Below, one piece after another: positions 55,107 through 58,329 of a stretch of DNA of 64,000 nt. The translations under genes were made by a program, and so were the position numbers. Numbering within the stretch: position 1 is the stretch's first letter; each line of letters begins with the position of its first letter. The stretch lies in assembly GCF_000263735.1 (NCBI RefSeq), contig NC_017946.1, positions 661,348 through 725,347 of the forward strand. The letters are read 5' to 3'. Under the pieces are notes generated by a model. The model ran no database searches, was not told where the DNA came from, and saw nothing but the letters and a program-made list of their open reading frames with translations. The stretch is from Pyrococcus sp. ST04. GTDB lineage: Archaea; Methanobacteriota_B; Thermococci; Thermococcales; Thermococcaceae.

Positions 55107-55541
55107 TCAGAGGATTTCAGTTATTGCGGCTTTTTCAAAAGACTTTTTTGCTTCTTCGGGGTTACATCTAAATAATTTTGATTCTTTTAAGTTTAATTTA
55201 GATAACATTTCAGCCAGCTTTTTGCAAGGGTCTAGTTCATCGAAGATGACTATATAGTTATTTCCTGGCTTTGCCCCTACGGATTTTATGGCATCTTTTA
55301 TCTGCTTTTCACCAGCCAGTCTTAGTAGTATTTCCCCCCTAATTGTTTTTGCTATATTTCTGGACTGCTTAAATGCTTTTATTGCTATTATTGTGGCGAA
55401 TATTACTTCTTCAACGCATCTTGCTGATAATATTTGACAGTTTTCTGGGCATAGGGTTAGGATATCTTCAATGTTCATGTTCTTCTCAATTTCTATGCTG
55501 GTTATGCAAATCTCCCCAACCGTTGTTTTGACTTTTAGCAT
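55107..55541 (-). CDS. Cgi121-like KEOPS complex subunit
   Basis: 144 residues. The central motif RGEILLRLAGEKQIKDAIKSVGAKPG near 68-93 is the signature region of Cgi121/TPRKB proteins (EILLxxxGxRQI). Cgi121 is the KEOPS subunit that binds the 3' CCA end of tRNA for t6A formation. The N-terminal part is less typical, so I leave some doubt. It is separated from the aminotransferase by 61 bases. The other KEOPS genes are outside the window. Confidence 0.72.
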   Translation of the reverse strand: MLKVKTTVGEICITSIEIEKNMNIEDILTLCPENCQILSARCVEEVIFATIIAIKAFKQSRNIAKTIRGEILLRLAGEKQIKDAIKSVGAKPGNNYIVIFDELDPCKKLAEMLSKLNLKESKLFRCNPEEAKKSFEKAAITEIL

Positions 55542-55571: not shown

Positions 55572-55614
55572 TTATTGGGCTTTAGTTTATAAAAGATTTT
55601 AGATATTATTGGGC
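55572..55614 (+). repeat. Direct 9-bp repeat upstream of the RHH-ftsZ operon
   Basis: TTATTGGGC occurs at 55572-55580 and again at 55606-55614, 34 bases apart (a little over three helical turns), in the 190-base gap between the Cgi121-like gene and the RHH gene. RHH proteins often bind short spaced repeats and regulate their own operon, so this could be an operator; the length is small enough for chance. Confidence 0.3.
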
Positions 55615-55731
55615 AAAAACTTAAAATTTTTAAAATTTCATAATATCACAATAATAAGATAGGCCAAAAAATATTTAACTAATTAAAGAGCAGCTTTAGA
55701 ATAGGAAACCTGCACATAGGGTGTTGCAGAA

Positions 55732-55923
55732 ATGGCAAAGATGAAAATAATCAGCGTTCAGTTGCCACAAAGTATGATACATGGTTTAGATGCTCTTGTT
55801 AAGAGAGGTGTTTTTCCAAATAGGAGTGAAGCCATAAGGGTGGCTATTCGGGAGCTTCTTAAGAAGGAATTATACAGAGAAGAACTCCAAGAAGGGGAAG
55901 TACCTGAATATGTTGTTAGATAA
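55732..55923 (+). CDS. Ribbon-helix-helix protein upstream of ftsZ (CdrS-like)
   Basis: 63 residues: KMKIISVQLPQSMIHGLDALVKRGVFPNRSEAIRVAIRELLKKEL is a classic RHH fold. It starts the operon with ftsZ 21 bases downstream. In haloarchaea the RHH regulator CdrS lies next to ftsZ2 and controls division genes; that synteny seems to hold here, though haloarchaea are distant and one small domain is weak evidence. Probably autoregulatory. Confidence 0.8.
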   Translation: MAKMKIISVQLPQSMIHGLDALVKRGVFPNRSEAIRVAIRELLKKELYREELQEGEVPEYVVR

Positions 55924-55944
55924 ACATGGGGGAGGAGGGGAGAA

Positions 55945-57186
55945 ATGGTATTTAAGAAGTTGTTAGAACAGGCAGGAATAAACCTAGACCTAGAGGGGAA
56001 TGGTGAAGATTCCTCGATGTCTGAGCTTTTAGATGTTCCTCAAGATCTTATAAAGATTGCAGTTATTGGAGTTGGAGGTTCTGGAAGTAATACTATATCA
56101 AGGCTGTATGATCTCGGAGTCCAAGGGGCAGATCTTATAGCAATGAATACAGATGCCCAGCATTTACATCAAGTTAAGGCGCATAAGAAGTTGCTTTTAG
56201 GAAGATCAATTACTCAGGGTAAGGGGTCAGGAGGAGATCCTAGGATAGGATATAGGGCGGCTGAAGCAAGTGCAAATGAAATTGCTAAAATAGTTAAGGA
56301 TTATGATCTCGTGTTCATAACTGCTGGGATGGGTAATGGAACTGGTACGGGTGCCGCTCCAGTTATTGCTAGGGTTATTAAGGAAACTGCAAGGAATAAT
56401 GCTAGATTGCAGGAGCCGTTAGTTATTAGTGTTGTCACATTCCCGTTTACAATGGAAGGAAAAGTCAGGATAGAGAAGGCTAAGGCAGGAATTGATATGC
56501 TTTTAGAACATTCAGACACAGTAATCATAATCCAGAATGACAAGCTTCTTGACTTAGTTCCGAACCTCCCAGTTCAAACTGCATTCAGATTTGCTGATGA
56601 AATAATAGCAAGAATGGTAAAAGGAATTGTCGAAACAATAAAGCTTCCAGCTCCAGTTAACATTGATTATGCGGATATCTACAGTGTAATGAAGGGTGGT
56701 GGGCCAGCTTTAATTGGAATTGGAGAAAGTGATTCAAACAATAGGGCTGTAGATGCAGTAATGGATGCTCTAAACAATAAGTTACTTGACGTAGAATTTG
56801 GATCTGGAGACAAGGCTTTGGTTCACTTTACTATTGGACCAGACGTTAGCTTAAAGGAGATAACCGATGCAATGAAGATTGTATATGAAAGGCTCGGAGA
56901 GAAGAGCGAAGTAAAGTGGGGTGTTATGGTCGATCCTGACCTGGGTAAGACGGTTTGGGCAATGGTCATAATGACAGGGGTTAAAAGTCCTCAAATACTT
57001 GGAAACAGGGAGATCCATGCTCTTACAGATTCATCCCCAATAGTATCCCCTAGGGACATTATTGCAGTAGACAGCAAGGTTGATGAAATTTTCAGCAAGA
57101 TAGATCCAAGGGGTAGGAGCTATAGTAAGGAGAAAAAAGTAGAATATAACAAGTTCTTCAAGAATTTTGGAATTTACGAGCTTTGA
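55945..57186 (+). CDS. ftsZ: Tubulin-like cell division GTPase FtsZ
   Basis: 413 residues. The GTP-binding loops [13 protein letters not shown] near residue 42, [11 protein letters not shown] and the tubulin signature [17 protein letters not shown] near 130 are intact, as is the catalytic T7 loop ([15 protein letters not shown]) containing the Asp of the synergy loop. A ~33-residue N-terminal extension ([18 protein letters not shown]) precedes the fold. Thermococcales have two FtsZ; I could not tell with certainty which one this is, but the RHH neighbour resembles the haloarchaeal ftsZ2 context. Confidence 0.92.
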
Positions 57187-57242
57187 TTTTAACTCTAAAA
57201 ATTTTTAACTTTTATATTTTTCAAACAATTTAGGTGGCTCTA

Positions 57243-58010
57243 ATGGGGGTAGTCATCAGTATAGCCAACCAGAAAGGGGGAGTCGGTAAAACCACCGTCG
57301 CACTAAACCTTGGCAAAGCTCTTGCAAATATGGGAAAAAAGGTTCTGCTCGTCGACATTGATCCTCAGTTCAATCTAACATTCTCATTGATTGGGATGGA
57401 TGTTGTAAACTATGAAAACAAGAACGTTGGAACTTTGATGACAAAGGAGAGCTCAATTGAAGAGGTAACGGTTGAGCTCTCGGAGAATCTTCATCTTATT
57501 CCTAGTCATCTAACACTCTCTGCCAAGGAGATAGAAATCTTGAACTCTTACAATAGGGAGAGAAGGCTGGAAAAGGCATTAAAGCCCGTATTCCCCGACT
57601 ATGACTTCATAATAATAGACAATCCCCCAAGTATGGGTATATTTCTTGTTAACTCTTTAACAGCATCTGATTATGTCTTAATTCCACTGGAGCTGAGTTA
57701 CTTTGGAGTCATAGGGATGCAGCTAATGTTCAACCTAATGGCAATGATAAGGGAAGAAACTAATGACGGCTTAAGACTTCTCGGTATAGTCCCAAACAAG
57801 TTCACAAAGCAGACAAAGGTTCCCCAAATGAGGCTGAAGGAGCTTAAGGAGCTCTATCCGGATGCCCCGATACTTCCAACTATCCCGAAGGCCATTGCAA
57901 TAGAGAAAGCTCAAGCCGAAGGCAAAAGTATATTTGAGTATGATCCCAATGGTAGGGCAAGCAGGGCTTTTGAAAAGCTTGCGAAAGAGGTGGTCTCAAT
58001 TGTCGAATGA
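57243..58010 (+). CDS. ParA-family ATPase (SegA-like)
   Basis: 255 residues starting MGVVISIANQKGGVGKTT, the deviant Walker A of ParA. VDIDPQFNLTF and IIDNPPSMGIFLVNS complete the nucleotide site. It has GLRLLGIVPNKFTKQT, typical of plasmid/chromosome partition ATPases rather than MinD. It follows ftsZ by 56 bases with its own TATA-like sequence (tttatattttt). The ATG at 57243 follows AGGTGG. It overlaps the RHH gene by 11 bases. Confidence 0.9.
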   Translation: MGVVISIANQKGGVGKTTVALNLGKALANMGKKVLLVDIDPQFNLTFSLIGMDVVNYENKNVGTLMTKESSIEEVTVELSENLHLIPSHLTLSAKEIEILNSYNRERRLEKALKPVFPDYDFIIIDNPPSMGIFLVNSLTASDYVLIPLELSYFGVIGMQLMFNLMAMIREETNDGLRLLGIVPNKFTKQTKVPQMRLKELKELYPDAPILPTIPKAIAIEKAQAEGKSIFEYDPNGRASRAFEKLAKEVVSIVE

Positions 58011-58329
58011 TGAGAGAAAAATTCCAAAGCTTTTTTCGGGCTCTGTAGGAGATTTAACTAAGCCAGGAAAGAAAAAGAAGGAAGAAAAAGATTTAAAAAA
58101 GGAGAAAAAGCAGAAAACTCTCTACATTTCACTAGACACGAACAGAAAACTCATAGAACTGTACGCTGAGGAAGGCAGAAGACAAAGTAACATTGTTGAG
58201 GATGCTGTGGACTTATATTACTACCTTCGAAAGGCATTAGGAGAGAGAAAGTTCGATGAGCTTATGGAGGTTGTTAAAAGAGAAGATCCGGAGTTTTTAA
58301 GGGAGTACTTAGGAAGGCTTAAACTGTGA
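58000..58329 (+). CDS. RHH-type partner of ParA (SegB-like)
   Basis: About 109 residues. The lysine-rich N-terminal part (GKKKKEEKDLKKEKKQK) is flexible; the C-terminal half (KTLYISLDTNRKLIELYAEEGRRQSNIVEDAVDLYYYLRKAL) fits an RHH fold, as in SegB, which binds centromere-like DNA beside SegA. I chose a TTG at 58000 because GAGGTGG lies seven bases upstream; the longer frame starting at 57934 would overlap parA by 77 bases. Identification as SegB-like comes from gene order and fold pattern, not from close sequence similarity. Confidence 0.72.
   Translation: MSNDERKIPKLFSGSVGDLTKPGKKKKEEKDLKKEKKQKTLYISLDTNRKLIELYAEEGRRQSNIVEDAVDLYYYLRKALGERKFDELMEVVKREDPEFLREYLGRLKL

Follow-up and report, generated by a model that had tools for sequence, protein, structure and literature searches.

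A ParA-type ATPase gene and its small partner lie directly behind a cdrS-ftsZ2 division locus in Pyrococcus sp. ST04, and the arrangement is kept in most Thermococcales. We consider it probable that this parA-rhh2 pair is a plasmid-related ParA/RHH partition module, captured behind cdrS-ftsZ2 in the ancestor of the Thermococcales and made together with FtsZ2. The stretch analysed here (the window) comprises 64,000 nucleotides (NC_017946.1, positions 661,348 to 725,347) of a genome that consists of a single contig of 1,736,885 bp. An earlier note on this DNA had described four open reading frames, for an RHH protein, FtsZ, ParA and a second small protein, and all four were confirmed at the places given. 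The features of the locus, in window positions, are the following.

55107-55541, minus strand: cgi121, KEOPS subunit (NF011465, E 6.7e-25), the divergent neighbour and boundary of the locus
55572-55580 and 55606-55614, plus strand: two copies of TTATTGGGC, proposed as an operator and rejected as such
55641-55656, no strand assigned: inverted repeat TAATATCACAATAATA (TAWTATnnnnATAWTA), candidate regulator site of the cdrS promoter
55665-55681, plus strand: CAAAAAATATTTAACTA, probable BRE/TATA of the cdrS-ftsZ promoter, near-invariant in 28 loci
55732-55923, plus strand: gene for a cdrS-like RHH regulator, 63 aa, with an RHH_1 match
55945-57186, plus strand: ftsZ, FtsZ2 type, 413 aa (TIGR00065, 358.8 bits)
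57243-58010, plus strand: parA, ATPase, 255 aa, with its nearest plasmid-borne relative on an M. jannaschii plasmid
57987-57992, plus strand: GAGGTG, ribosome-binding site of rhh2, inside parA
58000-58329, plus strand: rhh2, putative RHH protein, 109 aa, TTG start, overlapping the parA stop
Parts of the rhh2 protein: conserved N-terminal KIPKLFxGS box, Lys-rich linker, putative RHH

The first two genes, cdrS and ftsZ2, are an already known archaeal pair. That a CdrS-like RHH protein directly precedes ftsZ, as the note had claimed, is borne out by a match to Pfam RHH_1 (E 1.1e-10) and a gap of 21 nt. The best NCBIfam model for this protein is haloarchaeal CdrS (E 3e-11), at 43 bits against an equivalog cut-off of 100 bits; because the score falls below the cut-off of a model built for haloarchaea, we limit the claim to CdrS-like. 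FtsZ itself scores over the cut-off of its family model. A second FtsZ in the genome, 49% identical, fits M. jannaschii FtsZ1 better (394 versus 302 bits), and in the tree the window protein clusters with the CdrS-linked FtsZ of the sister class, separate from FtsZ1. These sequence relationships make it an FtsZ2-type protein, like the one encoded at the cdrS-ftsZ2 locus of haloarchaea (PMC7439475). The order of cdrS before ftsZ2 recurs in the sister class, with no parA in the loci retrieved there (flanks of about 1.5 kb), and cgi121 is the divergent neighbour throughout the Thermococcales and likewise in the sister class.

The third gene encodes a ParA with the Walker motif KGGVGKTT, and the closest solved structures are those of chromosomal ParA/Soj proteins (E 1.6e-39). 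A small partner gene overlaps or abuts every ParA copy that we found. No family model reaches its own cut-off on the partner in the window, RHH2, and the RHH assignment derives from a sequence pattern together with weak in-register matches to RHH_1 (E 0.06, for one ortholog), the omega repressor (E 0.18, for the RHH2 family profile) and SvtR (E 0.47). The AlphaFold monomer was of low confidence (pLDDT 68.5) and retrieved no match with Foldseek. Taken together, the pattern and the matches weakly support an RHH fold; kinship with the CdrS-like RHH protein was not detectable. Translation of rhh2 begins at TTG (58000), and this start codon, with the SD-like motif GAGGTG inside parA, is found in 49 of 49 loci, which suggests translational coupling and limited synthesis of RHH2. 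The KIPKLFxGS box followed by the Lys-rich linker would be a natural candidate for a ParA-activating arm. Of the genomes in the phylum set, 84 of the 94 Thermococcales have RHH2 and all others lack it; a pattern-based, non-exhaustive scan of 84,980 species returned it from Thermococci only, and a search in phages returned none.

The earlier proposal would have been refuted if the parA pair were not kept next to ftsZ in relatives, but it is kept. Of the 94 Thermococcales genomes, 75, representing five of the six genera, have ftsZ and parA as neighbours on the same strand, with matches 43-240 bp apart; chance would not nearly account for such conservation of gene order. It runs aat, cgi121 (divergent), cdrS, ftsZ, parA, rhh2 in the Thermococcales loci inspected. 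The 19 exceptions comprise all 13 genomes of one genus (g4), a loss in genome G034, and five fragmented or incomplete assemblies, four with the locus split over contigs or truncated (G035, G046, G052, G056) and one 75% complete (G088). Both g4 and G034 have empty sites: they retain cgi121-cdrS-ftsZ without parA-rhh2, and a convergent nucleotidyltransferase-like gene lies directly after ftsZ. In G034, a complete genome of 1.52 Mb (L077), the absence is clean and there is no SegB either, so the system is dispensable. Genera g2 and g6 split first in the rooted FtsZ tree (100/99 for the rest; long branches flagged), and since g4 is nested among the carriers, it has lost the ftsZ-linked pair. The sister class has cdrS-ftsZ2 without parA, and parA-rhh2 therefore appears to have joined the locus on the Thermococcales stem.

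The best plasmid match of the ParA, at 50.8% identity, is on a 58-kb plasmid of M. jannaschii. The parA of this plasmid overlaps a 110-residue partner gene, an RHH2 homolog: hhalign gave 96.4% with the ftsZ-linked set alone and 98.2% (E 3e-14) with a wider set. A displaced parA-rhh2 pair (57% and 37-38% identical) is found in five g4 genomes, besides SegAB. The ParA tree joins the displaced g4 copy to the plasmid ParA (88/82); these two and the ftsZ-linked copies make up a single clade (97/97), from which g4 SegA is separate. We infer that plasmids were the source, not the recipient, of the module. Related genes also occur elsewhere. Plasmid THER333_p of T. nautili carries an RHH2-like gene without a neighbouring parA (L144:3393-3725), and one genome (G063; L078, L079) has two more ParA genes, 30-32% identical to the window ParA and probably of plasmid or viral origin, with overlapping small partners, one of them weakly RHH.

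Repeats flank the displaced and plasmid members of the family. In the three g4 genomes that were checked, the 26-bp palindrome ATTAAATAATTATTGYATTATTTAAT (up to 3 mismatches) has exactly three sites each, all at the displaced cassette, versus 0 in the reversed control; two of the sites precede parA, by 38 and about 520-530 bp, and the third follows rhh2 directly. Its core ATTATTGCATTA has 18 matches on the M. jannaschii plasmid (up to 1 mismatch) versus 6 in the reversed control, and four of these sites lie either 5' of parA or immediately after the partner gene. Such repeats look as a cassette-borne centromere would, and they provide the strongest indication of function. ATTATTGCATTA-like repeats on NC_001732.1 (L143, L173-L176) cluster at the parA cassette and also around 36.5, 38.4 and 41.8 kb. 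The search for centromere-like repeats that the note had called for found none near the window locus: this genome lacks the 26-bp repeat, and ATTATTGCATTA has four one-mismatch matches in the window (0.43 expected), one of them near the locus, inside ftsZ. The window pair is homologous to the plasmid module, and its completeness as a module is putative. AAATCA repeats are significantly enriched between rhh2 and the convergent gene in 22 Thermococcus-type regions (within L022-L060), with 42 forward, 0 reverse and 3.7 expected. As a general centromere, RAATMA/AAATCA repeats 3' of rhh2 were rejected; they are missing in Pyrococcus and where the intergenic region is 6-15 nt.

In the upstream region the note had pointed to a repeat, TTATTGGGC, as a possible operator. 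It is indeed present twice, but the operator role did not survive comparison: the repeat is found in 0 of 27 relatives, is private to this genome, and is not rare by chance, at least two copies arising in 15 of 100 window shuffles. Common to 28 loci of six genera upstream of cdrS are AAAATTTTTTGAA, the inverted repeat TAWTATnnnnATAWTA and CAAAAARTATTTAACTA, the latter likely the BRE/TATA element. The inverted repeat is exact in 20 of the 28 aligned loci, and its distance to the downstream cdrS ATG is about 87-94 nt in every case; it has one match in the window versus 0.07 expected, and CAAAAAATATTTAACTA has one versus 0.00. Activators bind upstream of the core promoter, and the inverted repeat is situated there. 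Its retention in g4 implies that it belongs to cdrS-ftsZ and not to parA-rhh2. The other three matches in the genome are not at division genes, and a CdrS regulon acting through this repeat was discarded, the other exact sites lying within coding regions or near unrelated genes. The gap between ftsZ and parA, 26-87 bp across loci, is often too short to hold a separate promoter, and parA-rhh2 is probably cotranscribed with ftsZ.

On the reading that we consider probable, the mechanism would be as follows. The parA-rhh2 genes, which have no conserved promoter of their own, would be expressed with ftsZ2 from the cdrS promoter, and CdrS, or another factor that recognises the conserved inverted repeat, would set the division proteins jointly with those for segregation. 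Bound to a centromere-like site, RHH2 would use its conserved N-terminal arm to stimulate the ATPase of nucleoid-bound ParA. By analogy with the family, in which gradients are driven by the centromere-bound partner, the resulting ParA gradients would pull apart chromosome copies. A point against this reading is the polyploidy of Thermococcus kodakarensis (PMC5120986), with which active partition becomes less necessary.

The ParA might instead act mainly on the Z-ring, like bacterial MipZ or MinD, if RHH2 bound to DNA set up a ParA gradient that bars FtsZ2 assembly. That ftsZ2, of all genes, has long been the neighbour of parA would be expected in that case, and the protein does resemble, though more weakly, the models for MipZ and archaeal MinD. 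These scores, however, are far under the ParA/Soj scores or the curated cut-offs: the archaeal MinD model yields 104.7 bits against a cut-off of 201.75, and Pfam MipZ, a formal pass at 46.6 versus 20.7 bits, is far surpassed by AAA_31 (186.9 bits) and the Soj structures. Moreover, plasmid and displaced-locus relatives have no adjoining ftsZ, and division proceeds in g4 and G034 although their ftsZ lacks the pair beside it. We regard this reading as unlikely. It is also improbable, in our estimation, that a CdrS-controlled operon makes FtsZ2 and a plasmid-derived ParA/RHH2 that both segregates chromosomes and places the Z-ring, with SegAB having displaced it in one genus. If true, such a dual segregation/Z-ring machine would be a one-locus archaeal counterpart of bacterial ParABS-MipZ coupling.

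Alternatively, parA-rhh2 might be carried along passively, as a domesticated or decaying remnant of a plasmid, its place beside ftsZ having no regulatory meaning. Such a remnant could well show the plasmid kinship of ParA, the clean loss in G034 and g4 and the lack of a centromere next to the ftsZ-linked copy. It would hardly be expected to keep intact Walker motifs and a strongly conserved RHH2 in five genera, an invariant TTG/GAGGTG start arrangement, and adjacency to ftsZ while genes further downstream were rearranged. We find this decidedly unlikely.

The earlier note had likened ParA and RHH2 to SegAB, a system reported from Euryarchaeota including Thermococcus sibiricus (PMC12284271). 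This kinship could not be upheld: the RHH2 profile finds no SegB at E up to 10, and hhalign to true SegB gives a probability of 0.2%. True SegB is confined to g4, where it occurs in 13 of 13 genomes (one a fragment) versus 0 of the 81 others; this partner matches solved SegB in the PDB (E 1.8e-12), and its ParA, 40% identical, is encoded elsewhere in the chromosome. SegAB has replaced ParA-RHH2 in g4, and the mutual exclusion of the two goes back to what is essentially a single evolutionary event and does not count as 94 independent ones. The g4 SegB (L071-L076) begins with KKALGRGLEAI/L, in front of the SegB-type domain, a motif that resembles the N-terminal ParA-activating box of bacterial ParB. 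The published T. sibiricus SegAB (PMC12284271) is probably of the g4 type. That the window pair is itself a SegAB chromosome-segregation system merely located beside ftsZ is very improbable, since the layout it has in common with SegAB, a ParA-type ATPase gene whose 3' end overlaps a gene for a basic DNA-binding protein of about 110 residues, goes with an RHH2 unrelated to SegB by these searches and with a ParA that scores 49 bits for SegA versus 139 for bacterial Soj.

Placing ftsZ beside a presumed regulator and a partition pair would offer a straightforward genetic means of linking chromosome sharing to division. Most of a genetically tractable archaeal order keeps the pair in an apparent operon with ftsZ2, and the one genus that swapped it for SegAB constitutes a natural experiment, a direct test of the coupling. 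The findings also indicate that, in archaea, more than one system lies behind the layout "ParA plus small overlapping gene". The note had considered the cassette uncharacterised in Thermococcales, and a search of the open-access literature (subscription papers being outside its scope) found no description of it.

Several known systems bear comparison with the locus. ParF-ParG and delta-omega are plasmid partition systems with an RHH centromere-binding protein. As in these, a ParA ATPase is followed by a small protein that would combine a flexible N-terminal arm with a C-terminal RHH, the weak omega match (E 0.18) being consistent with this; unlike them, the pair is chromosomal, lies in a division operon and has no adjacent iterons that could be found in this genome. 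SegAB likewise pairs a chromosomal ParA-type ATPase with the overlapping gene of a small basic DNA-binding protein (PMC12284271, PMC5120986), but RHH2 is no SegB homolog by sequence, genomes with the ftsZ-linked pair have no SegB, and SegAB is without any consistently associated gene whereas the window pair sits beside ftsZ2. The CdrS-FtsZ2 locus of haloarchaea and other archaea (PMC7439475, PMC8406309) also has a small RHH gene directly before an FtsZ2-type ftsZ, and a conserved promoter-proximal site; in contrast to it, the Thermococcales unit runs on into parA-rhh2, and no CdrL gene was seen beside it. The cassette of the M. jannaschii plasmid pDSM2661_1 (MJ_RS09090/MJ_RS09095) differs in being plasmid-borne, with its own upstream region, ATTATTGCATTA repeats and no ftsZ nearby, yet it has a ParA 51% identical to that of the window, a partner of the same family and the same gene overlap.
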